A stretch of 64,000 bases of DNA from Mesostigma viride (Eukaryota > Streptophyta > Mesostigmatophyceae > Mesostigmatales > Mesostigmataceae): assembly GCA_009746045.1 (NCBI GenBank), contig RPFO01000167.1, positions 312,001 to 376,000 of the forward strand, given 5' to 3'. The translations under genes were made by a program, and so were the position numbers. Of the stretch, positions 12,401-59,265 are shown in pieces. Every line of letters starts with the position of its first letter. Within the stretch, counting starts at the first letter, position 1. The notes beneath the pieces were generated by a model. It was not told the origin of the DNA and searched no databases. It saw only the letters and a list, made by a program, of their open reading frames with translations.

Positions 12401-12623
12401 GGAGGGGGGCCTCGAACCCGCGCAGCAGCGAGATGGAGGACAGCTCCATGACCGCGTTGGCGGCCTCCTCTTTAGGGGAGGCAGAGAAGTCATTCGTTGA
12501 CTTGGGAGCCAGGCATGCGACCACAGGGGCACGGGCGGGGACTGGCTTGAGACCAGGGACACCACGGCCCAGCTTCTTTCCTTGGCTCAGGCTGCTGTGT
12601 GTGGGCACGGGGCGCAGCAGCAT
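9494..12623 (-). CDS. LCIB-like tandem theta-carbonic anhydrase, plastid-targeted
   Basis: Three exons: 12254-12623, 11023-11989, 9494-10721. Donors are gtaagt and gtgagt; acceptors end in cag. The 2,565-nt join keeps one frame and gives 854 residues. Exon 1 encodes an N-terminal region with Ser/Ala/Arg/Pro composition and an Ala-rich hydrophobic stretch (LGTILVLAAAIVSSA), as expected for a plastid transit peptide. Two LCIB domains follow (about 245-500 and 585-840). Each keeps CRDE, SHSP and STACGA, with the probable zinc ligands Cys283/His325/Cys366 and Cys620/His662/Cys705; RERYVFFSFPHIA is in both. LCIB proteins hydrate CO2/bicarbonate in the algal carbon-concentrating mechanism around the pyrenoid. 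Chlamydomonas LCIB has one domain, so this is a tandem form. Copy 2 at 26215-29337 is broken. Family confident; activity inferred. Confidence 0.88.
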
Positions 12624-12639
12624 CGGGAGAGATAGGGAA

Positions 12640-13420
12640 CGATGACTTTCAGTAATTGCGCACTGACGGGAGCGGAAGGTTGCTTACGGAACGAAGCCAT
12701 CCCGATCTAATTTCGAGCGGCTCACTCCCATGTATCTGGGGAGGGATAAGCATTCACTGCACACTTCATGGTGCGACGGCCAAAGGCTATCATTGCAGAA
12801 ATTGCTGCCGAAACCACCAGCGGGCGCGCCCAGCAGCCAGGCACAGTACACCAAGAAGAGAGGGCGCATCGTACCTAGCGGATTGGAACGAGGCGACCTT
12901 CAGCTGGCTTCCAGTCAAGAAGGAAGAGGTAAGAGACGCCATTGTTTCTAAGCGGAGGTGGAGGTGGGATGGGTGGGATTGAGCCTGGGAAGAGCTTGGG
13001 GTGGGCGAGCCTAGACTGCATCAGGTGCGGAATGCTGGGCCTTATTGTACCCTCGACCAACTTGCATCCTGACCAACGGTTCCGCATTATATTGACGTTA
13101 TCCAATTTTCGGCATGGGGCTTTGGAGGTGCGCGTAGGTCCATAACGATTATTCGGTCGTTATGTTTTTAAAACTGATGCCGGAGGCCGGTGCTAGGCTG
13201 TGTAGGGCACAAATCGGGCAGGAAAAACTGCCTTGTAAACCCACTTGGCGACATGGGAGCAACCGTTTAGCTCCTCGACGGCCCAGCTTTTCTAGGCGCA
13301 TCTGCTACGAAAATCGGTTACAGACTTACAGCTGTAGTTCAATATTGTGCTAACTGCTAAGCCTGAAGCTATTAAACGCAAAAATAATACGGTACAAGAT
13401 TAAACGCAAAAATAATATTG
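12640..13420 (+). other. 5' flank of LCIB-like gene; possible divergent exon
   Basis: Upstream region, conserved with 29360-30100. It may hold the LCIB promoter and a divergent transcript: 12800-12929 is open, codes for a Pro/Lys/Arg-rich peptide (PKPPAGAPSSQAQYTKKRGR) and ends in an excellent donor (GAAGAG|gtaagag). Copy 2 keeps the donor but has a small insertion after 'cagaaatt'. No partner exon was found, so this could be a truncated gene or chance. Confidence 0.25.
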
Positions 13421-13716
13421 GCAAAAATTAGGGTTGGGTCCACGAGTACTAAGTCCACGAGTACAAAAGGCGAGTACCGAGTAGTGAGTACTACTCACTA
13501 CTCGGTACTCGCCTTTTTTTTGGAGCCCGAGTACTACTCGTTACTCGTACTCGCCTACTTTTTTGAGCTCGAGTACTACTCGTTACTCGTACTCGCCTAC
13601 TTTTTTTTGGACGAGTACTACTCGTTACTCGTACTCGCCTTCTTTTTCTGAGCCCGAGTAGTACTCGGTACTCGTACTCGCCGACTTTTTTAAGCCTGAG
13701 TAGTACTCGGTACTCG

Positions 13717-16294: not shown

Positions 16295-16806
16295 CTCGCT
16301 GCCCAAAATCCAGCGTGGACCCAACCCTAGTGCTGCCGGCCATTAATATTTGTTGTCTCTTTTCATAAAGTATTGTTATTTTCAGAAAGTATATATATAT
16401 TTGGCTCGTTACTTCATAGTTTTTTTTGTAAATTTTAGGGAAATTATATCAGCCAATAGTATCGCAGGTACTCGAGTACTACTCGAGTACTACTCGTTAC
16501 TCGTACTCGCCTTCTTTTTCTGAGCCCGAGTAGTACTCGGTACTCGCACTCGCCTATTTTTTTGAGCTCGAGTACTACTCGCTACTCGTACTCGCCGGCT
16601 TTTTCTGAGCCCGAGTAGTACTCGGTACTCGTACTCGCCTTCTTTTTCTGAGCCCGAGTAGTACTTACTCGGTACTCGTACTCGCCGACTTTTTTTAGCC
16701 TGAGTAGTACTCGGTACTCGTACTCGCTGCCCAAAATCCAGCGTGGACCCAACCCTAGCAAAAATAGCACCACGCACAATCTGATATATTTTTCCCGAAG
16801 ACTTTG

Positions 16807-17290: not shown

Positions 17291-17316
17291 ACGCAATATT
17301 AATTAATTTCAGGGGA

Positions 17317-19290
17317 CGTGGCGCGCCGAATATTTTCCGAGCCAAAAAATTTGCGGCACCGTCCGTACGGTGTATACCGGGTAATGTGTGCCCGGACCGC
17401 TCAACCCTCGCGGAGGTGGCCATGGCGGCGTGCCTTAGGCAATATTAATCGACATGGCATGGTAAAAGCTAGCAAAACTGCACGAATTCCGCAGAAGATT
17501 AGTTGATGACCACTTTCCATTGCGGAAAGTTTACGGTTTGCAATATCGCTAATATATAATTTCTCGAACGGCTACGGGCGCGGCGGGGGTCCAGGATATA
17601 AGTTCTCTTGCGGATAATGAAATTTAATGCGGGTTTACGGCAGCGATTGTGAGGCAACGTAGGCTCTGAAGAGAGATTATGAAGCTAACTTAATGGTGTT
17701 GTCGAGTTTGTGCCGAAGCTTCCCGGTTTCTTTTACATTGCCGGCATTCAAGGTAAGAACCTACGCACGGCGCGGCCTTAACGCATGCATATGTCGCCTT
17801 CGACGTATTCACGGAAGGCGCACCTTCCTTGTTCGCCTATAATGGATGATGTCTTTAATTGTTTGCGCTTGCGTGCCAGTTTATGCACCAAACATTTCCA
17901 CGCAGGCAGGTGCATTAACGTCGGCCTTTCGCCTTTTTTTCGGGCAGTTTCCCTGCAGCAGGAAGCGCTCCATTTCTTTCGGTTGCTTCGTCAGATTCCT
18001 AGCTATTTCGTACGATTTCGTGTAGTTTGTGGCTGGCATGCTAAAGGCGCCGAGGTTAAGTTGTTGGTAATGTGTTGGCATTTGTTCTCCATAATCCTTT
18101 GGACATGAGCTTGCTCTGACGCTTTGTTTTGTGCCGGATATGACACGCCTGTTTTAGTAACGACATCCGGCATATGTGCCTAGAGGCTAACAAGCTGGCA
18201 TCAGCTAAGCTAAAGAAGTTCTTAGCAAATTACCATACTGGCAAGGGAGGTGAGAGTGGTTCTTTTGCTGGCCATACTGCATGAGTGGCGTTGTATTAGA
18301 TGGTAGGTGTTTCCATTGCTTTCCTTGAGCTATAACCATGGAGACTTCCCTGCTATGTGTGCAGCGCGTAAGGCAAGCTGGATAAGATGTGAATGCTCGG
18401 CGGACTGCATGTATGATTTGCTGCCAAGTTTGCAGGCTGCAGTTGCCTCTATTGCTTGGGCAGTCTTTCTAAGGTTTTTACTGCACGTATGCTTGCTGAG
18501 TTCTTGGCATAAATTTACAATATGGTAACCTTGGGCTGAGCATAGTGCATGCTCTCTTGGTGTATGTATGCCTAGCGATGGTGTCGCTATGCCCATGCTG
18601 GCAAGGCTGGCCATGCTGAGGGCAGGGGAGGGCAGATGAGGTGCCTAGCCTTTTCTTATGTTGTGTGATCGAGTTGGGCATGTTTTTTGGCTTCTTGGAT
18701 GGAAAACGTCATGTCTAGGTGGCCTTCCACACAGAAAAGCCTCATTTAGCGTATGTTCAGGTTTTAGCTCGCAAAACCTTATAACTTGAGCTAGACTTGT
18801 CGGAATGACCTGGGACTTGGACCACAGCTATCCCCCTGTTAGCCGGATTTTCGTTTGATTTTGTGGCGTTATCTGAAGTGCTTATGACATGTTTAGTCCC
18901 AACTAATGTCCAGAAAAAAAGGGTTGTTTTGCGGGGGTCATTAGTAACTGTTCAAGGTTTCGCCATTTGCGTGATGTAAATGGCTCAGCAATTTTTACAA
19001 ACTCAGGAAACTATGGACGCTACACTTATTTTTGCTGACAAATGTGTGCATTGGGTGGGGCATACCCAGCCCTAATTAGCGTCTTTTTCTATTTATAGCA
19101 CAATATTGGTGCGGCCCTTTGGTGTATAGATGGGGGTTAGTACCCCCAACAAGTGCATGGACAACTCATGCACCAGAGATGTTATTAACTTGTGCCCCCA
19201 ATCATAATTTAGCATGGTGCAAATGGATCACAAGTGATGTTAGCATGGGCCAAATTTTGAGGGTTTTGGGGTGCCACCTTTTGGGTTGTA
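17317..19290 (+). repeat. Unclassified ~2-kb interspersed repeat (family D)
   Basis: Starts 'gacgtggcgcgccgaatat' and ends near 'ttggggtgccaccttttggg'. Relatives: 30171-31372 (near-identical, truncated), 35045-36965 (diverged, full length) and 43801-44830 (inverted 3' part). Shared marks are the 'gccgtccgtacgg' start region, 'gagttgggcatg' in the middle and a GGGGGTTAGTACCCCC-like hairpin near the 3' end. No ORF in any copy. It could be a retroelement without coding capacity. Confidence 0.65.
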
Positions 19291-24880: not shown

Positions 24881-25850
24881 TTCCCGTTTACCCCGACTAG
24901 GTTGTCCCCAGTTTACAAATTAACAAAATTAACAAATTAACGCCGGTGGAGTACCTGCGGACTGCTCGACGCGGAGTCACCGGGCTACAAGTTCCGTACT
25001 TTACCAAACTCAGCCTTAGAGGCCGCCGCACCAATTTTTACTTCTTTCCGTCACATGGCTTGCGTTGGGTTCATCGACGAGCATCGACGCTCATCGACGG
25101 TGCAATCTGACGGCGGAGAATAAGTTCGCCACAGCATAGCGCGACGCAAGGGCTAAGATCCGACAACGTGACATGCAAAGCTTTATGCCGCATCGCTAAC
25201 CGGAAATTCCGTCCAACACCGTCGTACAGTACTGCCAGTCGACCGCACCTCTGCCTCTTAACCGTCGAATGCGCAATCGATCTAGAAAGTAGAAACGTCC
25301 CCGCGACACTTCCGCGATTTCAGTACTTTCCGTCACCCTTGACAGTTTTCGTACAATACTACAAATTTACGCCAATAGAAACTCGCCTCCATACATATAT
25401 CTCGATAGAGGCGTGCGTCTTATTTAATTTCAAGGTAACTTACCTCTTAATTAATCTCGCCCCCCCGTTGTAACACCGTCCCCCGTTGTAACACCGTCCC
25501 CCCGTTGTAACACCGTCCCCCCCCCCCATAAATGCGTCCCCCCCCCGTTGTAACACCGTCCCCCCCCACGTACAGTACTTTCAACCGCAGCTCTGCCTTT
25601 TTAACCGTCGAATGCGCAATCGATCTAGAAAGTATCCGCGATTTCAGTACATGCCGTCACCCTTGACAGTTGTCGTACAATAGTACAAATTAACGCCAAT
25701 AGAAACTTGCCTCCAAACATATATCTCGATAGAGGTATGCGTCTTATTTAATTTCAAGGTACCTCTTAATTAATCTCGGCCCCCGCCTTCCGCTAATTTG
25801 CTAATTTGCTAAATTTGCTAAAAAAGAGCCAATTTTACCCCGACTATTCA
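24881..25850. mobile_element. ~970-bp insertion specific to copy 2
   Basis: Copy 1 has the empty site 'aaagaattattcaacagtc' (9113-9131). The insert starts 'cccgtttaccccgacta' and ends 'ttttaccccgacta', so 'tttaccccgacta' occurs at both ends as a direct repeat. Inside, two 220-bp direct repeats (about 25225-25470 and 25570-25790) flank a C-rich minisatellite. No ORF; class unknown. Confidence 0.6.
25461..25567 (+). repeat. C-rich minisatellite
   Basis: Five or so repeats of about 20 bp, of the type 'cccccgttgtaacaccgtc', with variable C-runs. Confidence 0.85.
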
Positions 25851-26214
25851 ACAGTCACGAGCAGCCTGCAAAATAAGACGAGTTCAGGGTTATATAAACC
25901 TCAGCTGACGGCCCAGATCGCCTAAAAAATACAAAACTGTACATGTGTTTGGCAATGCTCGTAAAGAGGCACTAAGTTGTGGGTGTTATGCCCCACCTAC
26001 GGTATAGCAAGCTGCCAGACTACGCAAATATACAAGTCGCAGTGTGTGTTTCACTAAGCAGCGGCCATCCCTAACCACTGCCAGCAAAAGGGTTTCCTCC
26101 TATCCTCTTCTATTCACAATACAGCACAATCTGACTATTTCTTCCCAGGCCACTGGGAGAGCCACCAGTATTCCCGCCACCGCCTTCAGAGAGTCAAGCA
26201 GGGCCACCTAGCAT

Positions 26215-29200
26215 TTAAAAGCCATCCGTCTCGGCGTTGCCCAGCAACTCGATCTGGCGTGGTGCAAGCGACGGCGTGCGGATGATGTCAATATCCTTGC
26301 GGACACCGTTGATGACAGCGTACGCCGAGCAGGGCGCGACGACCTCCAGGCTGACCTTGTCGTTCTCGCTGGCCCAGTTGTGGATCTGGATGCCCGTGAT
26401 GACCGCGTAGTCCGCCTTCTTGATGTCGACCGCCTGCATGATCAGGTTCTCCAGGTCCTCGGTGATCATGCGCTCAGCGATCTTGGTGATGCCGACCAGG
26501 TCCAGGTCCGCCACGTCCTTGCCCTCGCGGATGGTGGCGCGCGCCAGGCGCTGCTTGAGGATTGAGTACTCCGGGTCCTTGGCGTTGTGGGTGCCGACTG
26601 CCATCTCGCCGAGCGCAACGGGGCCGACAGCCTTGATCTCGCCCAACGAGGCGATCAGGGCACCGCACGCGGTCGAGGGCGCGTCACGGTTGGGGCGTGG
26701 CACGCGGCCAATGTTGCCATCAGCATCCACGGCGATGTGTGGGAAGGAGAAGAAGACGTAGCGCTCGCGGCCTGAGAACTTGCAGGTCGGGGAGTGCGAC
26801 AGGCCGGCCTTGAGACCGGTGACACCGCAGGTGAGGACACCGCCGAGCCCGTTGACGTTGAACGAGGAGCCGAAGACCTTGTCGATCTTCTGCTTGAGTG
26901 GGCCGGTGATCTCATCACGGCACAGGTTGATGCAGGCAATCGAGTTATACGACTCAAAGCCAAACTTGTGGAGGGAGATCTCGACGCGGGAGACAAAGTC
27001 CTCATAGCCCAGGAAGTAGGGGAAGTGCTTCTGGAGCATGGCAGCGCGCTCAATGTCGTTGGTGGCGGCATTGTCCTCCACCGCGACGACCGCGGGGGTG
27101 GCACGGTGGACGCGACCTGGATGGTCTTGCGGTCGGTCAGCAGGCGGGTGGCGACGGTCGCGCCGGCCGCGGTGGGCATGGCAAAGCGGCCGCCGGATGG
27201 GCCCTCCTTGCTCATCTTGGCGTTGCGCATGAGGGTGATCATGCGGGGGGTGAGGGCCGGCAGCGCCGACAGGTCCATCTCCTTGCGCTCGCCGTTGATC
27301 ACGCAGTAGGCCTTGCCCGGCAGCACAAACTCAAAGTCGTGGCGGTCCTTGTTGCCGCCCTCCAGCAGCTCCTTCTCATTAGCCTCAGCCTCCCACGCGT
27401 GGATCTGGATGCCCGTGATGACCGCATAGTCGGCCTTGGAGCTGTGGTGGGGAACAGAAAAAGAGAGAGGAAAGCAGGGCCAGGTGGCGTGAGGAGGTCA
27501 GCACATGGGAGGAGGCATTCATGGAGCAAGCTACTATCACTTTATTCATTATGAACTGGACTAAAACGAAGGGAACTATCAGCTGATGATGAAGGATTGC
27601 AAGGCAAGATTGGAAAGAAAACATGAAGAGCTCTCTTCCACCCTGGCCATGCGGTACAATGTGCACAGTTGAACTCAAAGCATGGACAAGTGACACCAGA
27701 AAACAGAGCAGAGACTCAAAAAGGGGGAAAACACTCACGTGTCGACGGCGTCCATGATCAGGTCCTCCAGGTCATGCGTGATGCGCTCCTCGGCCGCGGC
27801 CGTGAACTTGACCAGGTCGACGTCGGCCGGGTTCATGCCCTTGGCCTTGAGGGTGCGCGCCATGCGGGCGCGGCAAATGGAGAACTCACAGTCGTGTGGC
27901 TCGTGCACGCCCTTGACCTTGCACTCGGGCTCCACACCATTGGCTTTGATCGTGCCCAGCGCGCCGATCATGGCACCGCACGCGGTGGACTCCTGGCCAC
28001 GGCCCGGGCGGTGGATGGCGCCCACCTTGCCGGACGAGTCGATGGCAATGTGGGGGAAGGAGAAGAAGACGTAACGCTCACGGCCGCCCAGGACGGGGGA
28101 GTGGGAGATGCCGGCCTTGACACCGGTCACACCGCAGGTGAGCATGCCGCCCAGACCGTTGACCATGAACGAGGAACCGAAGACATCCTCAACCGCCTCA
28201 CGCATCGGCTCGCAGACCTCATCACGGCACACGTTCAGGCAGGCGATCGTGTTCTCGCCCACAAACCCGTTCTCAAACAGGGCGACCTCCGCGCGGGAGA
28301 TGAAGTCCTCCAGGTTGGTCGCGCCGGGGTAGTACTTGCCGACCACCGCGGTACGGTCGGCCAGGGCCTCCTCGAAGGTGCGGGTCATGTTGTTAGCCTC
28401 CACGACCTTCTGGGCCTTGTTGAGGATGTCCGCCTCGCGCTGGATGAGCGCCACCGGACGCGCGGACGAGCTGCGCGCCTTGGAGAGCATGGTCCAGCCC
28501 ACGGTGGCCAGGGACCCACCGACGGCCAGGGGCAGCACGGTTGGGGCCAGGCGGGAGACGGTGGAGGACAGCTCGCCCGCATTCAGGCCCGCGGCCGCGA
28601 TCAGGGGCAGCGCAGCGCCCGCCTTCTGCAGCTGGGCACCCATGGAGGCGTCAGGGGCGCCATGGGCCAGGTGGCCGAGGCTCTCATCGATGGCAGCGCC
28701 CATGGCTGGATTTGGGCAGGGGGCGGGGGGCAGCAGAAAAGGGAGTAAGGGAAAATGGTGGACGAGGACATGTCAGTGTGGTTGGCCGTGGTGGGGGATG
28801 GGCTGATACTGATCAAGAAAAGAAGGCTGCATCGTGGTAGATCAGCAAGCTAAGACAGGGTAGTCGGGCTGATTAATTAAAGCCAGCTGTCACTGTCAAG
28901 CTACCAAGGGCCACGCCTTGAAGGGAACCGGAAACAGAAAGCCAGACTAACAGGGGAGCAGACTTACAGGACGGGTTGGTCGCCGCGTTGGCCATCTGGG
29001 CAGCGCTGGAGACGATCGCAGCCGCGAGCACGAGGATCGTGCCCAGGTTCAGGCCCGCCGAGGGGGTGCCTGGGGCGGCAGCGGGGACCATGCCGACGGA
29101 GCTCATCAGGTTGCGGAGGGGGGCCTCGAACCCGCGCAGCAGCGAGGTGGAGGACAGCTCCATGACCGCGTTGGCGGCCTCCTCTTTAGGGGCGGCAGAC

Positions 29201-29337
29201 AAGTCATTCGTTGACTTGGGAGCCAGGCATGCGACCACAGGGGCACGGGCGGGGACTGGCTTGAGACCAGGGACACCACGGCCCAGCTTCTTTCCTTGGC
29301 TCAGGCTGCTGTGTGTGGGCACGGGGCGCAGCAGCAT
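26215..29337 (-). pseudogene. LCIB-like gene copy 2, frameshifted
   Basis: Same exon structure as the gene at 9494-12623: 28968-29337, 27739-28705 and 26215-27441, with the same donors and acceptors. Exon 3 is one base shorter: the G-run at 27094-27098 has five G where copy 1 has six (10373-10378). The first LCIB domain and transit peptide read normally, but the frame changes in the linker just before the second domain, which stays intact in the other frame from 27081. The product would be a single-domain protein plus a foreign tail. Either a recent pseudogene, a sequencing error in the homopolymer, or a functional single-domain version. Very few other coding differences, so the event is recent. 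Confidence 0.8.
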
Positions 29338-29359
29338 CGGGAGAGATAGGGAACGATGA

Positions 29360-30170
29360 CTTTCAGTAATTGCGCACTGCCGGGAGCGGAAGGTTGCTTA
29401 CGGAACGAAGCCATCCCGATCTAATTTCGAGCGGCTCACTACCAGGTATCTGGGGAGGGATAAGCATCAACTGCACACTTCATGGTGCGACGGTTGCAAG
29501 CTATCATTGCAGAAATTAAATTGCTGCCGAAACCACCAGCGGGCGCGCCCAGCAGCCAGGCACAGTACACCAAGAAGAGAGGGCGCATCGTACCTAGCGG
29601 ATTGGAACGAGGCGACCTTCAGCTGGCTTCCAGTCAAGAAGGAAGAGGTAAGAGACGCCATTGTTTCTAAGTGGCGGTGGAGGTGGGATGGGTGGGATTG
29701 AGCCTAGGAAGAACTTGTGGTGGGCGAGCTTGGACTGCATCACAAGTGGAATGCTGGGCCTTATTGTACCCTCGACCAACTTGCATCCTGACCAACGGTT
29801 CTGCATTATATTGACGTTATCCAATTTTCGGCGTTGGGCTTTGGAGGTGCGTGTAGGTCCCTAACGATTATTCGGTCGTTATGGTCCAAAACTGATGCCG
29901 GAGGCCGGTGCTGTAGAGGCTGTGCGAAGCACAAAACTGCCTTGTAACCCCACTTGGCGACATGGGAGCAACCGTTTAGCTCCTCGACGGCCCAGCTCTC
30001 TAGGCGCATCTGCTACTATAATCGGTTACAGACTTACAGCTGTAGCGCAGTATTGTGACAAGCCTAAAGCAATTACGCAAAATAATGGCAAAAATAGCAC
30101 CACGTCTTTCTAAGACGCACACGCTGATATATTTTTCCCGAAGATACTACGCAATATTATTTAATTTCAG
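29360..30170. other. 5' flank of copy 2, no gene confirmed
   Basis: Counterpart of 12640-13428 plus the empty hAT site (near 30085-30102). 30103-30158 resembles the 5' UTR of the ORF1-only element ('gacgcacacgctgatatat'). The donor-bearing open stretch (29520-29648) is conserved with copy 1. Confidence 0.5.
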
Positions 30171-31372
30171 AGGACGTGGCGCGCCGAATACTTTCCGAGC
30201 CAAAAAATTCGCGGCACCGTCCGTACGGTGTATATTGTGTGCCCGGACCGCTCAACCCTCGCGGAGGTGGCCATGGCGGCGTGCCTTAGGCAATATTAAT
30301 CGATATCCCTACATGTAAAGACCATGGCATGTAAAAAGCTAGAAAAAATGCATGAATTTCGCAGAAGATTAGTTGATGACCTCATTTCATGGCGGAAAGT
30401 TTACGGTTTGCAATATCGCTAATATATAATTTCTCGAACGGCTACGGGACGGGCGCGGGGGTCCAGGATATATATAAGTTCTCTTGCGGATAATGAAATT
30501 TAATGCGGGTTTACGGCAGCGATTGTGAGGCAACGTAGGCTCTAAAGAGAGATTATGAAGCTAACTTAATGATGTTGTCGAGTTTGTGCCGAAGCTTCCC
30601 GGTTTCTTTTACATTTCCGGCATTCAAGCTGGTACCTGAACCTATATGACGCATATGCATGATGCGCAGGCCTCATGCGCAATGATCATGATGTCGCCAT
30701 CGACGTATTCACGGAAGGCGAACCTTCCTTGTTCGCCTGGACAATGGATGATGTCTTTTATTGTTCGCGCTTGCGTGCCAGTTTAATTTATGCATCAAAC
30801 ATTTCCACGTATACGTAGGCAGGTGCCTTAACGTCGGCCTTTCGACTTAAATTCGCCTTTTTTTCGGGCACTTTCCCTGTAGGAAGCGCTCCATTTCTTT
30901 CGGTTGCTTCGTCAGATTCCTAGCGATTTCGTAAGATTTCGTGTAGTTTGTGGCTGGCATGCTAAAAAAGAGGTTCAGTTGTTGGTATACGTAATGTGTT
31001 GGCATTTGTTTTCCATATAATCCGTTGGACATGAGCTTGCTCTGACGCTTTGTTTTGTGCGGCCGGATCTGACACGCCTCTTTAATTTAGTAACGATCAC
31101 ATCCGGCATATGTGCCTAGAGGCTAACAAGCTGGCATCAGCTAAGCTAAATCTAAGTTCTTAGCAAATTACCATATTGGAAAGGAAGGTGAGAGTACTCT
31201 CACCTTCCTTTCCAGCAAAAGAACCACTAGTGGTTCTTTTGCTGGCCATACGTACTGCATGAGTGGCATTGCATTAGATCTAAGGTGTTTCCATTGCTTT
31301 CCTTGAGCAGCTATATATAACCATTGAGACTTCCCTGCTTAATGTGTGCAGCAAGGCAAGCTGGATATATAG
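30171..31372 (+). repeat. Family-D repeat, truncated copy
   Basis: Near-identical to 17317-18392, part of the duplication. Truncated at 31372. Confidence 0.75.
31177..31245. repeat. Two adjoining perfect palindromes
   Basis: 31177-31214 (19-bp arms) and 31212-31245 (17-bp arms). Copy 1 (about 18236-18271) has a simple sequence here. The insert consists of the reverse complements of its own two flanks. Confidence 0.85.
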
Positions 31373-31373
31373 A

Positions 31374-32603
31374 ATGCACAAAAATCCTGTTGCTTTGCGC
31401 ACCATTGCTGCGTCGCATTCAGCCCCACTGATGCCTCTCTCGAAACTCATCTGCCATGCTTTGAATGCTCTTCTCCCCGAAGCCCATGCATTATGGGTGG
31501 AGGTGCTGTCGAATGCCGGGTATGTTCAAATGCGTTGGTACTTGGTAGTTGGATCGTCATAGACTCAGCCCAAGTACGCCTACGCCTTGCCGCCCTTCTT
31601 AGCCGTTCTCAGACAGCAGCAGAGAAGCGTATACCTATGCCCATAGCCACCTATGATTTCACCACTCTATATACCACACTAGATTTGCACGATTTGAAAG
31701 CTCGTTTAGATAGCCTCCTCGTCTGTATGCACGTAGGCCTCACGGGCGCAACCACCTGCACGTGCGTGTTTCTCAGACCAAGCCCACGGCAACGTGGCTC
31801 TCAGGGATTGCGGCAGGTGCTATCGTGCGGGATGCTTATAATTATATTATCACGAAGGCTGACCTTGTTCATTGGATCTCTTATCTTGTTGATAACACCT
31901 TCATTTGTTTTGCGGGCAATGTATACCAACAAGCTATCGGCATCCCTATGGGCACTACTAACTAACTGTGCCGGGCTCCTTGCAAACCTCTACTATCTAC
32001 ACACTTATGAGCTTGCATTCATGGAGAATCTCACTGCCTCAAACGATGATGTTCTCATCAGGCGTTTTATCCACACGTACATGTCGATACATTGATGATG
32101 TCATTGCTTTCGACAACCCTGATTTCGCAACCCATTTGTATATCACCGCTGGTCTGCCTGGCATCTACCCGCAACCGGTCCCTCACATTAAAGCTCCCGT
32201 CGGAGGATACTCATTGCAATTACCTCGATCTTAACATTACCCATAACAAGAAGGGCTGGCGTACGGCTGTCTATGATAAGCGCAAGGATCCTAAATACCA
32301 GCAAATTCCTTTTATTCGTTACCCCGATATTCACAGTCTCCTTTCCCACACAGCAAAATATGGTGTTGTTCTTTCTCAGTTACATCGTTTTTCCCGTCTT
32401 TGTTCTTATCGTGTCGATTTCATCACGACTCTTGTTGAACTCTTGCATCGTTTATTGGTCAAAGACTACTATGACCGAGACATTCTGCTCCGTCAAGTCC
32501 GATGTTTTTTGCAACGTCACCCATGTGATGCAATGATCTGTTCGGTGCTGCCCCTTGGCACAAGCTCTACAAACAGGTCGTGGACCGGCTGGATCGCGTA
32601 GTA
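31374..32603 (+). pseudogene. Penelope-like reverse transcriptase
   Basis: Blocks in order, in alternating frames: MHKNPVALRTIAASHSAP (fingers), YDFTTLYTTLDLHDL (motif A, Asp), IGIPMGTTN (motif B), YIDDVIAFD (motif C catalytic Asp pair), NYLDLNITHNKKGW, then KYGVVLSQLHRFSRLCSYR and FLQRHP at the C-terminus. HKNP, GIPMGT and RYIDD-type boxes set this apart from the LINE RTs here and fit Penelope-like elements, probably the Naiad/Chlamys branch known in green algae (from memory of that family, not tested). At least four frameshifts: inactive. Confidence 0.65.
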
Positions 32604-32830
32604 TCTCCGCACATCTGAACCCTGTGATGCCAGATCTCCTTTGCAGCCGTTCCGAGCTTGGCACTGGATTCGTTGTCCACATCGTCGCGTCGCTGCAGCA
32701 ACACGATGTTTTCTGGCATACGCGGGCTTTTGGTTCCCGCCGCACATTTGAAAGTGCTGTCCTCCGGCTTTTTGCCTTTGCACCGTGTGCAGTTCTTGGA
32801 CGTTTGGAATCATGGCATGGCTAACGTGAT
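31374..32830 (+). mobile_element. Penelope-like retroelement, 5'-truncated
   Basis: RT-bearing element that starts inside the RT finger region, directly at the broken end of the duplication, and runs through a 3' region shared with 6060-6550 (minus). No GIY-YIG endonuclease is seen; it would lie in the missing part or be absent. Confidence 0.65.
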
Positions 32831-33025
32831 GACTGACTAGCTAGACCTTTTCAGTGGTTTTCCATTTGCGGGTATTTCCTCAACATAAATGGTGGGAGAG
32901 CGATCGCAGCAATGGTGCCGATCACCACTAGACACTCCCGGCCAGTTAGGCTCGCAACACACGCCCTGATCAAGCATGCTGTTTCCGGCCCCACCGTCTA
33001 GGTCATCTAGTCGCTCTACACGTAA

Positions 33026-33184
33026 GCCAGCCATAATTTCAATGCACAAGGATACACATTTCCATCCCCATTCATCTTCATCATCCTGAACGACTCGAAC
33101 ACGCGGACAAGACAACGGCAGGCTCGAGCTACCATGGTCCGGATTCTCCCGATTTCTGGCCTGCGCTGGTTGTCTCCTTGATAT
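33026..33184 (+). repeat. Short retroposon copy
   Basis: Close copy of 8577-8755. Between the Penelope-like element and this copy (32831-33025) I see nothing recognisable. Confidence 0.65.
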
Positions 33185-33189
33185 AGAAT

Positions 33190-33850
33190 GTGAATGCTTG
33201 TGTAACGACTAAAAATGATCATCAGCATCATCCATAGTCCAAATATGAAAGATCTTTTACCTGGGTTGCTTTCTTGAGTTACAGATCTTCAAGTATCCGA
33301 GCAACGTTGAGATGGAGATTCCACAGCACGTGATTTAGGGAACCACACCCCTTGTAGACACAAAGACAAGCTTGTGTATAGACGACCTCTGTGGAACTGA
33401 AGGCAGTCTATAGTCAAGGGGCTCTTATGAATGGACAACAAAGACAAGCTTTATTATACCATGATGGATCAAAAGCAACGTAGCAACAATGGCGACCCCA
33501 CGTCCTTGATATCGACGTGCTTGTCGAGCATGCCTCAACCTTAGCCTGAAGAGAACCAATCAGAATCATGGAACTCTAAACAAGATCTTCGTATCCATCC
33601 TAGTCACACAAAACAGAACAACACCACAAACGTCCCGGCAGAATCTGTACATGAGATCCTGAATCTGTAGTAAGCACTACAGTCCCAAAGGAGCTCGATA
33701 ACTAGTAGGTACCGACCAACAAACTATAACCCCACGTGGATCAGGCCACGACCAATGAGGGCTAGTACCAGTCGGTTGATAAAGTACAAGCTCCAAGTAC
33801 CGCCGTCTTAGAAATCTCATAACTTTCTCAATACTGATCCAAAAGTCCTC
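33190..33850. other. Non-coding stretch, nothing recognised
   Basis: AT-rich, stops in all frames, no repeat match noticed. It ends at the first base of an LTR. Confidence 0.5.
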
Positions 33851-39918: not shown

Positions 39919-41681
39919 ATGGATCCAGTGGGTGGAGAGATGTCTCCTATACCTACCACTACTAATAATACTAATAATGCTAATAATAATAATAACAACA
40001 ACAATACTCGTGGTAATATAGACGGGACTCCTTGGAAACGGTACACCACCTCACTCCTCAAGGTAACCTGCGTACCTCACCTCCTTCCCCTACCACTAGT
40101 GGTCGTCGTCGTTCCTCTGTCACCCCTCCTACCTTTGAACAACCTATCTATGCATGTCAGATTTAGTGAAGACCCTTCTTTCACCGTGAACCAGGCCCCT
40201 GCCCCTCCTGCAACCTTGGCTCAACAACCCTCAATTAGGTCCTCACTTCCTGATAATGCTTCTAGGCCTCAATCTCATCCTGTTCCTTCCATCCCTGCTT
40301 ATTGACATTATAACATGGGTCGTAACTCTGCCCCTGTAGGCCCTTCTGGTCGCCCGGCCTAGTGCAGTTCCCTTTCATCCTCCTGCTTCTTGGTCCGGCT
40401 ACCCTGACACGGCCTACGAGGCTGCCTAGGTCCCTTCCCGCGTAGCAGAGCTAGAAGTTAATAGTGATTTCAGCACCATGCCCCTAGATGATAGAAATTA
40501 TGATCATTTTGCCTATTCCTCCCTTCGTGAACCATATACTGTCCCCTTCTCCTATGGGCACCAGCCTGAAACGGTGGCCCCCTCTAGACCCCTATCCAAA
40601 ACCTTTCCTCTCCCTTCATTCTATCCCCCTTATGTAGCAGTGGAGGACAGTGGCCCCATGGGTAGATCTGATCCTTCCCATCCTCCTAAGCCCCCTGCCC
40701 TTCCCCTCTTTGCTAACCTTCCCAAATTAGATGTCAAGTCTTCCCCTCAACAGTTTTTCACTTTTATTATGCTGCTGACTCAAAACACAGAGTCGTGGCA
40801 AAATCACAACAGATGGCGTCTCCCTGCATGATGCAGTTTTAGTCCCTCACTATCTTACTACCTGTATTACCTCTGAGCTTGCTACCCTCATTCAGTGTGA
40901 ATCCTTGGCCTCCCATGCATACCCTAACTCAGTAGCAGAATTGTTTAAGAGGTTAGAGAGTCATCTAGTTCCTCCTGATGCAGATTGGCAGGATAGATTA
41001 GCCTTTGGTACTCTTCAGCAAGGTACTAAATCGTTTAGGGAGTATATGAAAGAATTTGATGCACAGATGGTACGTATTAGGGATTTGTCGGGCGCAGAAG
41101 TACGTGCTCGTTTCCTTCAAGGCCTCAGTAGACCCTTATTATTACGCGAGGTAAAACGCCAGTTCTCTGCCTACCGTTTCACTGATCTACCCCTCAACCA
41201 TGTGCGACACCATCTCTTAAGAGTAGCAGATTTCTTCACCACCCCTTCTCTTCCTACCCCTTCCCGTATTAATAATATTAGCCTTACCCCCGAGGAGGAG
41301 AACTCCTATGTAGAAGAGCTAGATATTTGTGTTACCGACCTCTCGGCTCTGGATGTCTCTCATATTACATGCTATCATTGTAAGGAAGTAGGTCATCTTA
41401 AACGTGAGTGCCCCAAGTTCCTTTCTGGTGCTCCCCCTCATCCCGATGCTCACCCTCCTGGTACCCCTCAGCGTGCTCCTATTCGTCCCACTTCAGGACG
41501 CATTCCCTCAGCTACCCCTAGTAGGCTGAATGCTGTGCAGACAGGACCCTCAGGGTTCCCCTATGATAATCAGGCTCCTGCACCCTCTTCGCTCCCTCGT
41601 GACCCTCCAGCAGTGGCTTTTTCGCCAGGGTCTTCTTCGGGGTTAGTCCCAGTGGATGTGGGGGGGGAGGGGGAACAGTAG
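39919..41681 (+). pseudogene. Gypsy-type Gag with zinc knuckle
   Basis: Three frame blocks. 39919-40305: Thr/Asn-rich N-terminus with an AAT/AAC microsatellite. 40350-40831: TAYEAA ... FSTMPLDDRNYDHFAYSS. 40905-41681: capsid region (LFKRLESHLVPPDADWQDRL, GTKSFREYMKEFDAQM, ARFLQGLSRPLL), then one CCHC knuckle CYHCKEVGHLKREC (41371-41412) and a Pro-rich tail. Stops at about 40306, 40427 and 40832 break it. Gag forms the retrotransposon particle and binds its RNA. Confidence 0.8.
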
Positions 41682-42190
41682 GCCTGTCAGCCGGGGGTAA
41701 CCTGGACAGCTACTAGCTAAGGACCTAGGTCCTTAGCTAGTACCCCAGATAATAGTTTTTGCCTGCCTGTTTTCATAACCTCGATTTAGGAACTGAATCA
41801 TCCCTACCCTTACGTGTTCGTCCTCTTATGTTTTTAAATGGCGGGTTAACCGTCCCTCACACTGTTGTAGACCCCTTCTTGCATGCTGATGAACTCTTGA
41901 ATGTCTCCGTGTTAGTGGATAGCGGTGCGGCTAGCTCCTTTGTGAGCGAAGCCCTAGTTAGGCGTTTAGGACTAGTCCCTAGTATCCCTCACACCAACCC
42001 TGTCACTGCTCATTATGCTGATGGTCGCACCAGTCATTCCCCTGGTACGGTATCCCTTCCCCTGGTTATACAAGGACGTACTGTCAACCTTACGGCCACT
42101 ATAGGTCCTATCACTACCGCTGATGTATTATTAGGATTAGATTGGCACCAGGATAATAAGATTACTAATTATGATACTATGGTGATCTGG

Positions 42191-42971
42191 TCATCTCCCT
42201 CGCCTGGCACGCTTTACGCCAGTACCGGGCCCTGTGCCGGGCGCAAGCCCCTGGGCAAGATCGAGAAACAGGACCTGTTCAAGGTCCTCGTCCTTCCTGT
42301 CCTCACGTATGGAGCCGAGACGTGGACCCTCACCGCCGACCTGGCCCGCAAGCTGGACGGCGCGGTCACCAGCATGCTGCGTTCCATTTTCCGAGTAGGA
42401 TATGCTGCTCATGTCCGCAATGAGGACCTGTACCAGGGCATGCCCTATATCACCAGCACCATTAAGCAACGACGCCTGCAGCTAGTAGGGCACCTAGCTC
42501 GTACCAACCAGGTAGACACCTCACGTGGCCCCCCCCGCAGGATTGCGACCAGCCCAGCCTGGCCGGCACCTCCTGACGTGGGCGGGGCCCAGTGCTGTTA
42601 GACGCCGCAAGGCCCGCACCTTCAAAGAACAGCTAGTAGAGGACATGGGGGGCCTAGGCCTCTCCGTAATTTGGAAGAAGATGATGGACAAGGCCAAGTG
42701 GGCCCAGGTCATAGAGGACAACGAGCCCCCCCCAGTGGGGAAGCGCCCGCGGGTGCAATCCCGGGGGAGGCACGCCAGATAGCTCCCCTATAGGGCAGCG
42801 TGCGGCTGCCTAGATAGATGTTGTAGTTAGACTGCTGTTAGACAGATGTAGTATGTAGCCAATGTAGATAGATTAGACCGGTAGGACTGTTTGCACCCAT
42901 CCATCCATCCATCGGGGTTAATGCTCCGTGACTCCCCAACGGGAGCACGCGTCTAATTAATTAATTAACTA
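42191..42971 (+). mobile_element. LINE-C, 5'-truncated insertion
   Basis: 781 bp with perfect 12-bp target duplication ATGGTGATCTGG (42179-42190 / 42972-42983). It encodes the LINE RT C-terminus (LPVLTYGAETWTL, IKQRRLQLVGHLARTNQVD) up to a stop near 42780, then 3' UTR with four CATC repeats, hairpin CTCCC-CAAC-GGGAG (42932-42945) and a TTAA tail. It splits the Gypsy protease from its RT. Confidence 0.9.
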
Positions 42972-44830: not shown

Positions 44831-45202
44831 TTTATCATTAAAGCAACCAAAAGACATTTCAATTCCAATGAGATACATGACGAATTACAAAGAGTGTCGA
44901 GTTGTAATGTTGTAGTTATAAGAGCAGCTGTGAGGCCCCTTGGGTGACGCCACTGCAGGCCCCTTGTGGCGGCAGTGCGTGTGTTCCCGACCTAGTTCCT
45001 ACTGGCATTCTTGCCAACGACGACCAGGGTGCCCGAAGGCCCTGTCCCTTGTCTCGTTCTCAGTCTTACACACATTCTTAACAAAACCAATACATTGTCA
45101 TATCCGTCAGTCCATCCTCATGGCAACTGACTGCATGCAACCACTCACGGGGGCTGCTCCGGGCTGCTCGAACTATTTCACCCCATGAAGACAACAAACC
45201 AG
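44831..45202. other. Nothing recognised; ends in target site of composite palindrome
   Basis: No ORF of note or repeat match. The last five bases ACCAG (45198-45202) are the target duplication. Confidence 0.5.
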
Positions 45203-45583
45203 AGTTATTATAAATAGTGACGGAACCTTTTTGCCACTTGGCAATTAGGTCCGTCACTATTTATCCGGCGAAAACCACTCGCCGGTATCTATTCCGCGTT
45301 AAGTTCACGTGAACGTGGCGCGGAATTGATACCGGCGAGTGGTTTTCGCCGGATAAATAGTGACGGACCTAATTGCCAAGTGGCAAAAAGGTTCCGTCAC
45401 TATTTATAATAACTAAAACGTCGTAGTGTGGGGGCCGATATCTATCGTACCGCTGATGCCTACTGCAGTACCGAATCTCGCCTTAACGATATTCCAACCG
45501 GGCATATTTTCCCTTCTGGCACTTTCGTTTGGCCTTCTGGTATCAATTCCTTCCGGTATTCGGAAATACCCGTGTCACCACAG

Positions 45584-45612
45584 GGATTCGAACCCCCGAC
45601 TTACGAGGTCTT
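45584..45612 (-). other. tRNA-like 3' half in spacer 1
   Basis: Minus-strand T-arm with B-box GGTTCGAATCC (complement of 45584-45594), adjoining palindrome 2. Copy of the plus-strand feature at 45825-45863. The acceptor-like part continues to 45574. Confidence 0.55.
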
Positions 45613-45824
45613 AGTTATTATAAATAGTGACGGAACCTTTTTGCCACTTGGCAATTAGGTCCGTCACTATTTATCCGGCGAAAACCACTCGCCGGTATCA
45701 ATTCCGCGCCACGTTCACGTGAACTTAACGCGGAATAGATACCGGCGAGTGGTTTTCGCCGGATAAATAGTGACGGACCTAATTGCCAAGTGGCAAAAAG
45801 GTTCCGTCACTATTTATAATAACT

Positions 45825-45863
45825 AAGACCTCGTAAGTCGGGGGTTCGAATCCCTGTGGTGAC
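45825..45863 (+). other. tRNA-like 3' half in spacer 2
   Basis: Begins directly after TAACT of palindrome 2. T-arm with B-box GGTTCGAATCC (45843-45853) and a following 7-nt acceptor-like strand (tggtgac) plus A. No matching 5' acceptor strand (gtcacca) is in the spacer, so it is only half a tRNA. Confidence 0.55.
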
Positions 45864-46239
45864 ACGGGTATTTCCGAATACCGGAAGGAATTGATACCAG
45901 AAGGCCAAACGAAAGTGCCAGAAGGGAAAATATGCCCGGTTGGAATATCGTTACGGCGAGATTCGGTACTGCAGTAGGCATCAGCGGTACGATAGATATC
46001 GGCCCCCACACTACGACGTTTTAGTTATTATAAATAGTGACGGAACCTTTTTGCCACTTGGCAATTAGGTCCGTCACTATTTATCCGGCGAAAACCACTC
46101 GCCGGTATCAATTCCGCGCCACGTTCACGTGAACTTAACGCGGAATAGATACCGGCGAGTGGTTTTCGCCGGATAAATAGTGACGGACCTAATTGCCAAG
46201 TGGCAAAAAGGTTCCGTCACTATTTATAATAACTACCAG

Positions 46240-49155: not shown

Positions 49156-49224
49156 GGAGAAATGTCCGAGTGGAATGCTATGTATGGGGTAACTTTCCCA
49201 AGGGTTCGAATCCCTCTTTCTCCA
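49156..49224 (+). pseudogene. tRNA-Ser pseudogene, plastid-like
   Basis: Perfect 7-bp acceptor stem (GGAGAAA 49156-49162 / TTTCTCC 49217-49223), D-arm start TCCGAGTGGA, a GGG...CCC variable arm and a T-arm with GGTTCGAATCC (49203-49213). The text resembles plastid trnS-GGA, but about 18 nt covering the D-loop end, the 5' anticodon stem and the anticodon are missing between GAGTGG and AATGCTATGTA. It therefore cannot decode. Probably plastid DNA moved to the nucleus. Confidence 0.6.
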
Positions 49225-49334
49225 TTAGAGTTTTGTTTAGCTTCTATTCTCGTCTACACATAATTCACACGAAGTACGCTTGCAAATACTTTATTACTAT
49301 TTTGTTTGATATACTACACTAATATTATAATTGT

Positions 49335-49495: not shown

Positions 49496-50655
49496 GTATG
49501 TACATGTGTGTGCAGCCGGTCCTTGCGTGCGCGGTGTGTGTACGTTTCTGTGCAGCCGCCCCTTGCGTGCGCGGTGTATGTACGTGTGTGTGCATGCCGG
49601 CCCTTGCGTGCATGGTGTGTGTACGTGTGTGTGCAGCCGCCCCTTGCGTGCGCGGTGTATGTACATGTGTTTGCACTCGCCCATTGCGTGCGCGGTGTAT
49701 GTACGTGTGTGTGCAGCCGCCCCTTGCGTGCGCGGTGGATGTACGTGTGTGCGCACTCGCCCCTTGCGTGCGCGGTGTATGTACGTGTGTGTGCAGCCGC
49801 CCCTTGCGTGCGCGGTGTATGTACATGTGTGTGCATCCTTGTCCTTGCGTGCATGGTGTATGTACATGTGAGTGCCGTCGCCCCAACCGTGCATTGTGTA
49901 TGTACGTGTGTGTGCAGCCGCCCCTTGCGTGCATGGTGTATGTACATGTGTTGCATCTCCCTTGCGTGCGCGGTGTATGTACGTGTGTGTGCAGCCGCCC
50001 CTTGCGTGCGCGGTGGATGTACGTGTGTGCGCACTCGCCCCTTGCGTGCGCGGTGTATGTACGTGTGTGTGCAGCCGCCCCTTGCGTGCGCGGTGTATGT
50101 ACATGTGTGTGCATCCTTGTCCTTGCGTGCATGGTGTATGTACATGTGAGTGCCGTCGCCCCTTCCGTGCGCGGTGTATGTACGTGTGTGTGCAGCCGCC
50201 CCTTGCGTGCATGGTGTGTGTACATGTGTGTGCATCCTTGTCCTTGCGTGCATGGTGTATGTACATGTGTTGCACTCCCCCTTGCGTGCGCGGTGTATGT
50301 ACGTGTGTGTGCAGCCGCCCCTTGCGTGCATGGTGTGTGTACATGTGTGTGCATCCTTGTCCTTGCGTGCATGGTGTGTGTACATGTGTGTGCAGCCGCC
50401 CCTTGCGTGCGCGGTGGATGTACATGTGCGGGCAGTTGCCCCTTGCGTGCGCGGTGTATGTACATGTGTTTGCACTCGCCCCTTGCGTGCGCGGTGTATG
50501 TACATGTGTGTGCAGCCGCCCCTTGCGTGCATGGTGTGTGTACATGTGTGTGCATCCTTGTCCTTGCGTGCATGGTGTATGTACATGTGTTTGCACTCTC
50601 CCCTTGCGTGCGCGGTGTATGTACGTGTGTGTGCAGCCGCCCCTTGCGTGCATGG
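49496..50655 (+). repeat. 40-41 bp minisatellite, block 1
   Basis: About 29 units of 40-41 bp. Core 'ccttgcgtgcgcggtgtatg', then 'tacgtgtgtgtgcagccgcc' with variants (gtgcatccttgtcc, gtgcactcgcccc, gtgcatgccggcc). The unit has no stop codon in any of six frames, so long Cys-rich (plus) and His/Thr-rich (minus) reading frames arise by chance. Interrupted by composite element 2 within CATGG. Confidence 0.95.
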
Positions 50656-50946
50656 AGTTACGTTAAATAGTGCCGGAACCTTTTGCCGCCTGAGGCAAAT
50701 CGGTCCGTCACACTATTTTGCCCGGAATAACCACTTCCGAGCACCCAAGTTAATTCGGCCGAATTAACTTGGGTGCTCGGAAGTGGTTATTCCGGGCAAA
50801 ATAGTGTGACGGACCGATTTGCCTCAGGCGGCAAAAGGTTCCGGCACTATTTAACGTAACTAAAACCTGGCCTCGTGGAGGGGGGACGAAGAGCCCGAGA
50901 CATCCGCCTAGGCCGCTGAGCACGCACCACTAAATGCGCCGGAGCT

Positions 50947-50993
50947 GCCTCAGTGAGGATTCGAACCCCTGACCTCCAAGGTGCACAGGTTTT
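50947..50993 (-). other. tRNA-like 3' half in spacer 1 of element 2
   Basis: Minus strand, next to palindrome 2; B-box GGTTCGAATCC (complement of 50957-50967). Mirror copy of 51200-51246. Confidence 0.55.
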
Positions 50994-51199
50994 AGTTACG
51001 TTAAATAGTGCCGGAACCTTTTGCCGCCTGAGGCAAATCGGTCCGTAACACTATTTTGCCCGGAATAACCACTTCCGAGCACCCAAGTTAATTCGGCCGA
51101 ATTAACTTGGGTGCTCGGAAGTGGTTATTCCGGGCAAAATAGTGTTACGGACCGATTTGCCTCAGGCGGCAAAAGGTTCCGTCACTATTTAACGTAACT

Positions 51200-51246
51200 A
51201 AAACCTGTGCACCTTGGAGGTCAGGGGTTCGAATCCTCACTGAGGC
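51200..51246 (+). other. tRNA-like 3' half in spacer 2 of element 2
   Basis: Follows TAACT directly. B-box GGTTCGAATCC at 51226-51236, T-stem with partial pairing, then an acceptor-like strand ctgaggc and A. No 5' partner in the spacer. Confidence 0.55.
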
Positions 51247-51542
51247 AGCTCCGGCGCATTTAGTGGTGCGTGCTCAGCGGCCTAGGCGGATGTCTCGGGC
51301 TCTTCGTCCCCCCTCCACGAGGCCAGGTTTTAGTTACGTTAAATAGTGCCGGAACCTTTTGCCGCCTGAGGCAAATCGGTCCGTCACACTATTTTGCCCG
51401 GAATAACCACTTCCGAGCACCCAAGTTAATTCGGCCGAATTAACTTGGGTGCTCGGAAGTGGTTATTCCGGGCAAAATAGTGTGACGGACCGATTTGCCT
51501 CAGGCGGCAAAAGGTTCCGGCACTATTTAACGTAACTCATGG

Positions 51543-52033: not shown

Positions 52034-52177
52034 CCGCCGCAAATATTTCCGTGCCTCCGAGAGGATTCGAACCCGGTACCCCAGGAGCGAACGCCAATCT
52101 TAGTTAAGTAATGCAATACGCATTACTTTTGCATACTTGCAAGTATGCAAAAGTAATGCGTATTGCATTACTTAACT
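52034..52177. mobile_element. Short palindromic element 3 with tRNA-like half
   Basis: Inserted in the minisatellite ('tttatgtac' on the left, 'catgtgtgtgcag' on the right; compare the intact unit at 53440-53460). A 76-bp perfect palindrome (52102-52177) again starts AGTTA and ends TAACT, with the inner hairpin AAGTAATGC-AATAC-GCATTACTT. Left of it, 52034-52101 carries a minus-strand tRNA-like 3' half with the same B-box (complement of 52063-52073), adjoining the palindrome as in elements 1 and 2. No left palindrome and no clear target duplication, so probably a partial copy. Confidence 0.8.
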
Positions 52178-58700: not shown

Positions 58701-59265
58701 TTTATTGCACCCTGCACTGTCCATGTTGTACCTGCACAACATGTGAGGACCAGCCACCCCTGCCCTGCACAGAGGGGGCTGAAGTCCGAGTGACAGGTGA
58801 CAGGACTATGACATCCTGGACCTGGCCACATTGCACCTGCACAACGTGGGAGACCAGCCACCCCTGCCCTGCACATGGGTGACTGAAGTCCTGGTGACAG
58901 GTGACAGGAATATTTCATCCTGCACCTGTGCTGAGCACGTTGTACTAGACAACATGACAGCACCCATGCCTTTACTGCCACTGAACAGTAAGGCCAGGTG
59001 GCCCAGGATATCCACAGTGAACTGGGGTCCTGGGTAACCACCTGTCAAGGGAGCTTTGACCCTCCACTTGAATGGGGGCACCTGAGCCACTGAGCTCAAG
59101 GCCATCCACCAAGGCATACGCCCTAGGGAAAAAGGTGTGAGATACATCCCATGCCCACCTATGAAGGTGTGCATAACGAAATTCCATGGTGTTGAAAAAT
59201 CAAAACAGATTTTATTGGGCATAGGGCACGCAGATGTATGAAAACAGACTCCAACCAACCCCCCT
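58701..59265 (-). repeat. Probable 3' LTR of the Copia-type element
   Basis: Lies after RNase H on the minus strand. A polypurine-like tract (minus: AAGGGGGGT, about 59262-59270) precedes a TGG start, and AATAAAA (about 59210) is a possible poly(A) signal. Contains a two-copy repeat of about 100 bp (58708-58804 / 58805-58908). The far boundary is not determined. Confidence 0.4.

Follow-up and report, generated by a model that had tools for sequence, protein, structure and literature searches.

Two near-perfect palindromic elements with a five-part plan and 5-bp direct repeats in Mesostigma viride, candidates for a family of fold-back mobile DNA

Parvoviruses and AAV form inverted dimers that share a common central palindrome, with palindrome flip/flop, and a plan of palindrome, spacer, palindrome, inverted spacer and palindrome (P-S-P-S'-P) is the form of such a rolling-hairpin dimer. 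The elements that we describe here differ from these viruses in that they have no Rep or capsid gene, are far shorter, and show a clean 5-bp duplication on integration. tRNA-derived SINEs are defined by a tRNA-like segment with a B-box and by a head-to-tail layout; our elements share the B-box segment, but lack the head-to-tail layout and have palindromic ends, with 5-bp duplications in 2/2 complete copies. Helitrons have neither target duplication nor terminal inverted repeats (TIRs), both of which are present here, so that a Helitron assignment does not apply. As in TIR DNA transposons, terminal inverted repeats are found, of 516 nt and 441 nt.

In the cited account of parvoviruses and AAV, the inverted terminal repeat primes second-strand synthesis, giving a covalently closed duplex (PMC11575299). 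In the ODIRA 'dog bone' described in yeast, hairpin-ended linear DNA gives rise to an inverted dimer, with the hairpins retained as duplex palindromes at both junctions; this differs from the present case in that the dimer results from faulty replication at inverted repeats of the host and integrates by homology, and is not a mobile family (PMC4689423). Among foldback elements and long-TIR MITEs, Tm1 and Galileo are similar to our elements in their wholly or partly non-coding copies, long inverted repeats and target duplication (PMC3169594, PMC4168063), and the TIRs of Galileo take in inner sequence (PMC4168063). However, their duplications are mostly 9 bp (Tm1) and 7-8 bp (Galileo) in length, against 5 bp here, and the cited passages on both mention neither a central palindrome equal to the end palindromes nor a tRNA-like segment (PMC3169594, PMC4168063). 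Duplication lengths compatible with 5 bp are given for RAGL (5 bp; PMC9435367), Ginger2 (4-5 bp) and LTR-type integrases (3-6 bp; both PMC10045372) and for Polinton-like viruses (PLVs; 5-6 bp; PMC12220804). Transib/RAGL elements, as described for AanRAGL, combine 5-bp target duplications with TIRs, although a 13-bp element CACACCCAAACCT, with CACACCC, is present in the TIR of AanRAGL, whereas the ends here read AGTTA, without a CAC-type start (PMC9435367). We found no RAG1-like transposase among the 20 of 114 open reading frames (ORFs) scanned, and a partner could lie elsewhere.

We analysed a window of 64,000 nucleotides of Mesostigma viride (contig RPFO01000167.1, positions 312,001 to 376,000), and all coordinates below are those of the window. 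The first element is made up of the following features.

45198-45202, no strand: target duplication ACCAG, left of element 1, from the sequence
45203-45414, plus strand: element 1 P1, a 212-bp palindrome, 8 near-centre positions of which differ from its own reverse complement
45415-45612, plus strand: element 1 S, 198 bp, with its right end antisense to a tRNA 3'-half-like segment and a B-box on the minus strand at 45584
45613-45824, plus strand: element 1 P2, the central palindrome, exact reverse complement of P1
45825-46022, plus strand: element 1 S', the reverse complement of S with 1 mismatch
45843-45853, plus strand: element 1 B-box GGTTCGAATCC, by consensus
46023-46234, plus strand: element 1 P3, of the same sequence as P2
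46235-46239, no strand: target duplication ACCAG, right of element 1, from the sequence

Element 1 thus follows the plan P-S-P-S'-P over 1,032 bp, with three 212-bp palindromes and two inverted 198-bp spacers, as the original prediction had it. Its two arms (45203-45718 and 45719-46234), of 516 nt each, are 99% complementary and ungapped, and over all 1,032 bp the element and its reverse complement are 99.03% identical, which upholds the predicted near-perfect self-complementarity. Mismatched pairs are limited to five of the 516, one between S and S' (45483/45954, the single difference over 198 positions) and four in the centre of P2. P1, the exact reverse complement of the mutually identical P2 and P3, is flipped relative to both. 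The predicted ends and flanks can be read directly, with ACCAG preceding AGTTA on the left and following TAACT on the right, and the predicted lack of coding capacity agrees with the overlap of element 1 by none of the 114 window ORFs of at least 100 aa. Chance cannot produce a near-perfect palindrome of such length. As to structure, the prediction was right for element 1; it omitted the flip of P1, the hairpins inside P, the tRNA-like segment, and two further elements.

One of these, element 2, was located via tandem-repeat and BLAST output, and has the same five-part plan in a largely different sequence.

50651-50655, no strand: target duplication CATGG, left of element 2, from the sequence and in-array empty sites
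50656-50861, plus strand: element 2 P1, a 206-bp perfect palindrome
50862-50993, plus strand: element 2 S, 132 bp
50994-51199, plus strand: element 2 P2, with 3 differences from P1 and P3
51200-51331, plus strand: element 2 S', the perfect reverse complement of S
51226-51236, plus strand: element 2 B-box GGTTCGAATCC
51332-51537, plus strand: element 2 P3, of the same sequence as P1
51538-51542, no strand: target duplication CATGG, right of element 2, from in-array empty sites

With P of 206 bp and S of 132 bp, element 2 has arms of 441 nt with one mismatched pair in 441; S and S' are without difference over 132 positions, and the outer palindromes P1 and P3 are exact complements. Two of the three differences of P2 mirror each other across its arms, resembling the result of one half being copied from the other. 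The ends of P align to those of element 1 with 76-79% identity over 81-88 nt, falling to 67-69% over longer stretches, and BLAST with the S of element 1 as query found no match in element 2 at E values up to 1e-3. There is no ORF of at least 100 aa inside element 1 or 2 that might encode a parvovirus-like Rep/NS1, although ORFs of the minisatellite reach slightly into element 2.

Element 2 lies 4.4 kb from element 1, in a 40-bp minisatellite, and is flanked by CATGG on both sides. Comparing its joined flanks with the array gave 0 mismatches in 50 only when 5 nt were dropped, and 9-19 mismatches in 50 at the other 11 of the 12 trial lengths (0-11 nt); the 90-nt flank join is identical to 50289-50378 (90/90). 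These empty sites among the array units identify the 5-bp repeat as a target duplication. For element 1, we found no empty site within the window, the joined flanks (0-7 nt dropped) giving 16-18 mismatches in 40. A fixed 5-bp duplication is thus present in 2/2 complete elements, with an empty site for element 2 only, and is absent from the fragment that we call element 3. These data support the predicted insertion of the element as one unit that duplicated 5 bp of target, and the support is strong through element 2 and its in-array empty sites. Across the window there are 178 pairs of AGTTA...TAACT at distances of 40-3000 bp, and in three of these the 5-bp flanks on the two sides are the same (about 0.17 expected, 178/1024); two of the three are elements 1 and 2. 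The third pair, at 32378-33824, has ends that are unlike beyond the pentamers and was taken as chance. Searching the window with a profile for degraded P copies recovered only elements 1 and 2. Both are single units, delimited by AGTTA...TAACT and edged by a 5-bp direct repeat, and both have the form of an inverted dimer with a palindrome at its centre.

Element 3, which lies close by, is a one-sided relative (52034-52177).

52034-52101, minus strand: element 3 truncated spacer with a tRNA 3'-half-like segment, and a B-box at 52063 on the minus strand
52102-52177, minus strand: element 3 P, a 76-bp perfect palindrome AGTTA...TAACT

Read on the minus strand, its P leads into AAGAT and a tRNA 3'-half-like stretch that ends at about 52034, where the minisatellite array resumes without a 5-bp duplication and with no P on the far side. 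The P-arm profile of elements 1 and 2 has no match to the interior of this palindrome. From its sequence we read element 3 as a truncated or one-ended member of the family.

In all three elements, P (the central P in the complete ones) is followed by AARAY and then by a segment resembling a tRNA 3' half, in which the B-box is perfect. The S' of element 1 begins with AAGAC and that of element 2 with AAAAC, and in both S' the sole TTTT forms the last four bases. The motif TAACTAA[AG]A[CT] occurs nine times on both window strands, 9/9 at inner P/S junctions of elements 1 to 3. Perfect B-box matches number six in the window, two in each complete element and one each at 49203 and 52063 (minus strand). 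The T-loop TTCGAAT follows the junction by 20 nt in element 1, 28 nt in element 2, and 30 nt in element 3, where the T-stem is poor. The 20 nt of element 1 presumably place the first spacer base at tRNA position 34, with a 5-nt variable loop, and the extra 8 nt of element 2 can form what we take, on the same assumed numbering, to be a class-II-like variable arm of 13 nt (ACCT-TGG-AGGT). The Rfam tRNA model spans the P2/S' junctions of elements 1 and 2 with 17.4 and 18.3 bits, below the gathering threshold of 29, such sub-gathering matches to tRNA-type models serving only as hints of tRNA-likeness; for element 3 there was no tRNA match up to an E value of 1. ARAGORN made no call at the three segments in standard, intron or mitochondrial mode. 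Because of these sub-gathering scores and the lack of an ARAGORN call, the segments are tRNA-3'-half-like and not tRNA genes, with no full cloverleaf.

A 7-bp acceptor partner of the segment lies 19 nt upstream in element 1 and 41 nt upstream in element 2, and no such partner exists within 110 nt in element 3. A tRNA 5' half inside P was accordingly dropped as a candidate, as the 7/7 partner shifts between elements 1 and 2 and is missing in element 3. The idea of a reverse-transcribed copy of a tRNA primer was likewise rejected, the discriminator A being followed by CCA in 0/3 elements. At gathering thresholds, Rfam gave no match to any known RNA or ribozyme over the whole window. The matches below gathering are mostly to microRNA-type models, which fit any hairpin, with a few sRNA and cis-regulatory models; a mascRNA-menRNA model spans the P2/S' junction with 21.7 bits, against a gathering threshold of 42.5, and an enterovirus cloverleaf match on the other strand of element 2 (15.2 bits, gathering 46) was dismissed as chance.

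The two ends of each spacer form imperfect inverted repeats, with scores as high in 7/2000 and 0/2000 shuffles. An A-box pattern (TRGYNNARNNG) fits element 1 with 0 mismatches and element 2 with 1 mismatch and is not found in element 3, against a background of 0.76 per 100 nt at no more than 1 mismatch. Divergent transcription by Pol III, outward from P2, is possible on these features.

Outside the elements, a degenerate tRNA-like sequence at 49159-49226 (GGAGAAA...TTTCTCCA), with a perfect B-box, adjoins the minisatellite, and ARAGORN calls mtRNA-His at 49156-49224 in mitochondrial mode only, with no call in standard or intron modes. With introns allowed, ARAGORN additionally calls an intron-bearing tRNA-Leu (cag) at 58964-59118 on the minus strand.

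Every P arm contains a hairpin that begins within 10 nt of the AGTTA tip, and elements 1 and 2 have a second hairpin in common, with a conserved loop [AT]AACCAC. Palindromes are accordingly nested on three levels: the arm hairpins, P, and the whole element. The two-arm alignment of elements 1 and 2 folds at -20.75 kcal/mol, an energy as low as which was reached by 0 of 1000 column shuffles (mean -3.36, SD 2.22, lowest -13.95). Three of the 19 hairpin pairs have compensatory changes between elements 1 and 2, 16 are unchanged and none is broken, a covariation that rests on two sequences. In the 38-nt arm of element 3, a 9-bp stem was found in 0/400 shuffles, and the fold energy was attained by 15/5000; the longest perfect arm stem of element 2 is weak when taken alone, being attained by 16/400 shuffles. 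As the pairing has been kept across two sequences, we suggest that single-stranded folding of P, as DNA or RNA, matters.

The interpretation towards which we lean is that these are non-autonomous elements of one structural family, mobilised by a trans-acting enzyme with a 5-bp stagger and doubled by a fold-back, rolling-hairpin-like process, the family being based on two complete elements and one fragment, all within 7 kb of one window. A transposase or integrase acting in trans would recognise the tip of P and cut the target with a 5-bp stagger. Doubling would occur by hairpin-primed copying, in which a monomer P-S-P folds at its terminal palindrome and is copied through, giving P-S-P-S'-P; in this product the outer P's would be exact complements and the central P the turn-around, and the dimer would then integrate. 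Since the spacers of the two elements show no relationship beyond the tRNA-like end, while the two copies within each element are 99.5-100% identical, the doubling either took place separately in the two lineages or is made anew in every cycle. Five of the six mismatched pairs of elements 1 and 2 lie in P2, and the outer P's are exact complements in both, an excess that is as expected if P2 is the fold-back turn-around, although four of the five P2 pairs are the standing central asymmetry of every P of element 1 and do not constitute independent evidence. The flip of P1 in element 1 and the change common to both P2 arms of element 2 also favour this reading. More speculatively, the B-box segment and the outer TTTT may allow a Pol III transcript, covering part of P2 and S', to run outward on either strand, or the tRNA 3'-half-like segment might act as a TFIIIC site only. 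Against fold-back copying, recent insertion together with gene conversion between the arms would likewise keep the arms identical.

Such conversion, or simply youth, would account for arm identity if the elements were ordinary foldback elements or MITEs, that is, TIR DNA transposons that lost their interior and whose TIRs absorbed inner sequence, so that the five-part plan is accidental. The TIRs, the 5-bp duplication and the lack of coding capacity all suit this explanation, as does the recruitment of internal sequence, with changes in length, described for the TIRs of Galileo (PMC4168063). We nevertheless regard it as rather unlikely, as two elements with unrelated spacers have in common the five-part plan, the P/S junction and the tRNA-like segment, as well as covarying hairpins in their P arms, and an accident would hardly recur in such form. 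The enzyme itself might be an rve-type integrase, with the elements as miniature relatives of a Polinton-like virus, a virophage or a Ginger-type element. The ends here are of the type 5'-AG...CT-3', as in Polintons. In the cited accounts, the TIRs of PLVs often measure several hundred bp and flanking duplications of 5-6 bp are sometimes present (PMC12220804), and duplications measure 4-5 bp in Ginger2 and 6 bp in Polinton (PMC10045372). We consider this kinship distinctly unlikely, as four exact P-derived patterns had 0 matches each in viral contigs, a search that diverged relatives would escape, and no integrase match was found among the 20/114 ORFs scanned, although a partner could lie elsewhere; since it names the enzyme, it could be compatible with the fold-back explanation.

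The perfect B-box and the single TTTT at the spacer end, together with the reverse transcriptase, gag and protease genes in the window, recall a different route, by which a Pol III RNA of SINE- or TRIM-like type is copied into a cDNA that snaps back at the palindrome, forming an inverted dimer that an LTR-type integrase inserts with a 5-bp duplication. Duplications of 3-6 bp are indeed reported for LTR elements and retroviruses (PMC10045372). This origin is very unlikely, in our assessment: P ends in AGTTA...TAACT, without TG...CA ends, a Pol III transcript stopping at TTTT would miss the outer P, and the A-box pattern is absent from element 3. By eye, moreover, we recognised neither a primer-binding site after P1 nor a poly(A) or other tail. 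Long inverted repeats are also a known product of chimera formation, and an assembly or library artefact, in the form of a fold-back read chimera, might therefore be suspected. This is extremely improbable, as exact 5-bp direct repeats flank both elements, the joined flanks of element 2 fit the array, and a chimera would not come back to the correct right flank; in addition, P2 of element 2 has 3 differences from P1 and P3, and element 1 has its S/S' difference.

We searched the window for a mobilising enzyme, and identified no transposase, Rep or integrase in a Pfam scan of 20/114 ORFs, which detected only reverse transcriptase, gag, zinc knuckle, aspartyl protease and LCIB domains. The gag, zinc-knuckle and aspartyl protease ORFs of a retrotransposon occupy 40905-42601, with a 32-bp palindrome (41711-41742) between them. 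Four ORFs were identified by Pfam as LCIB/C carbonic anhydrases. Relatives of 9494-10606 belong to green algae where organisms are named among the best 120 of 521, the best-scoring named relative among these being from Parachlorella kessleri (55% identity over 81% of the query), and the window is probably nuclear DNA of a green alga.

For relatives of the elements in other genomes, the pattern searches gave 0, 0, 6, 3, 0 and 0 matches in viral contigs and 14 in genome contigs. These 23 outside matches were taken as chance, the longest perfect palindrome arm nearby being 10 nt (range 5-10), and one of the 3 viral-contig matches to one pattern is a tRNA gene. BLAST of element 1 against the first 20 matched loci gave at best 26 nt, and there was no BLAST match in phages to elements 1 and 2, or in plasmids to element 1. 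The viral, prokaryotic, phage and plasmid collections would hardly contain a green-algal nuclear element, so that their silence says little. By title and the start of the abstract, we found no mobile family with a P-S-P-S'-P plan and a tRNA 3' half among the literature matches listed, with most subscription journals outside coverage. The element family is likely to be novel; the original prediction of an undescribed system is plausible, with no relative in these collections and no such plan in the literature matches listed.

The window contains other repeats and palindromes. A 4.3-kb segmental duplication (9122-13388 and 25845-30086) is 96.6% identical, with two LCIB/C carbonic-anhydrase ORFs per copy. 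A repeat of about 1.2 kb (copy b, 30149-31367, and 17291-18384) is 92% identical, and 13 of its 16 indels of 3-60 nt are extra sequence in copy b, several of them palindromic; the stretch at 31177-31245 reads L-rcL-rcR-R with a 3-nt overlap. At the 16 indels, palindrome arms average 4.12, compared to a null mean of 2.27 (maximum of 200 nulls 4.19), with one 19-nt arm weighing heavily, and six other repeat pairs, of 1-6 indels each, have mean arms of 1.0-2.5, near their nulls. The extra sequence in copy b has the look of insertions templated by fold-back, or of excision footprints. Two arrays of 42-43-bp units (13486-13719 and 16484-16727) contain motifs such as GAGTACTACTCG, and there is a 53-bp palindrome at 13465-13517.

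Going beyond the fold-back doubling of integrated, non-autonomous elements, we tentatively raise, as a possibility for which we hold modest expectations, a new class of eukaryotic mobile DNA: a hairpin-ended linear minireplicon, in which fold-back replication, driven by the nested palindromes, would yield inverted dimers, a Pol III or TFIIIC element would come from a captured tRNA 3' half, and the dimers would integrate with a 5-bp duplication. If true, rolling-hairpin replication would have a cellular counterpart that does without a capsid. Replicating genomes generally do not keep long perfect palindromes stably, yet two of about 1 kb, with a common architecture and unrelated spacers, stand here, with a third palindromic relative nearby. 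P is repeatedly joined to a tRNA-like 3' half, and how mobile DNA takes up pieces of tRNA is a further question. If the inverted doubling is remade in each cycle, hairpin-primed copying of a chromosomal element would be directly testable, and this would be a family that inherits structure more than sequence.
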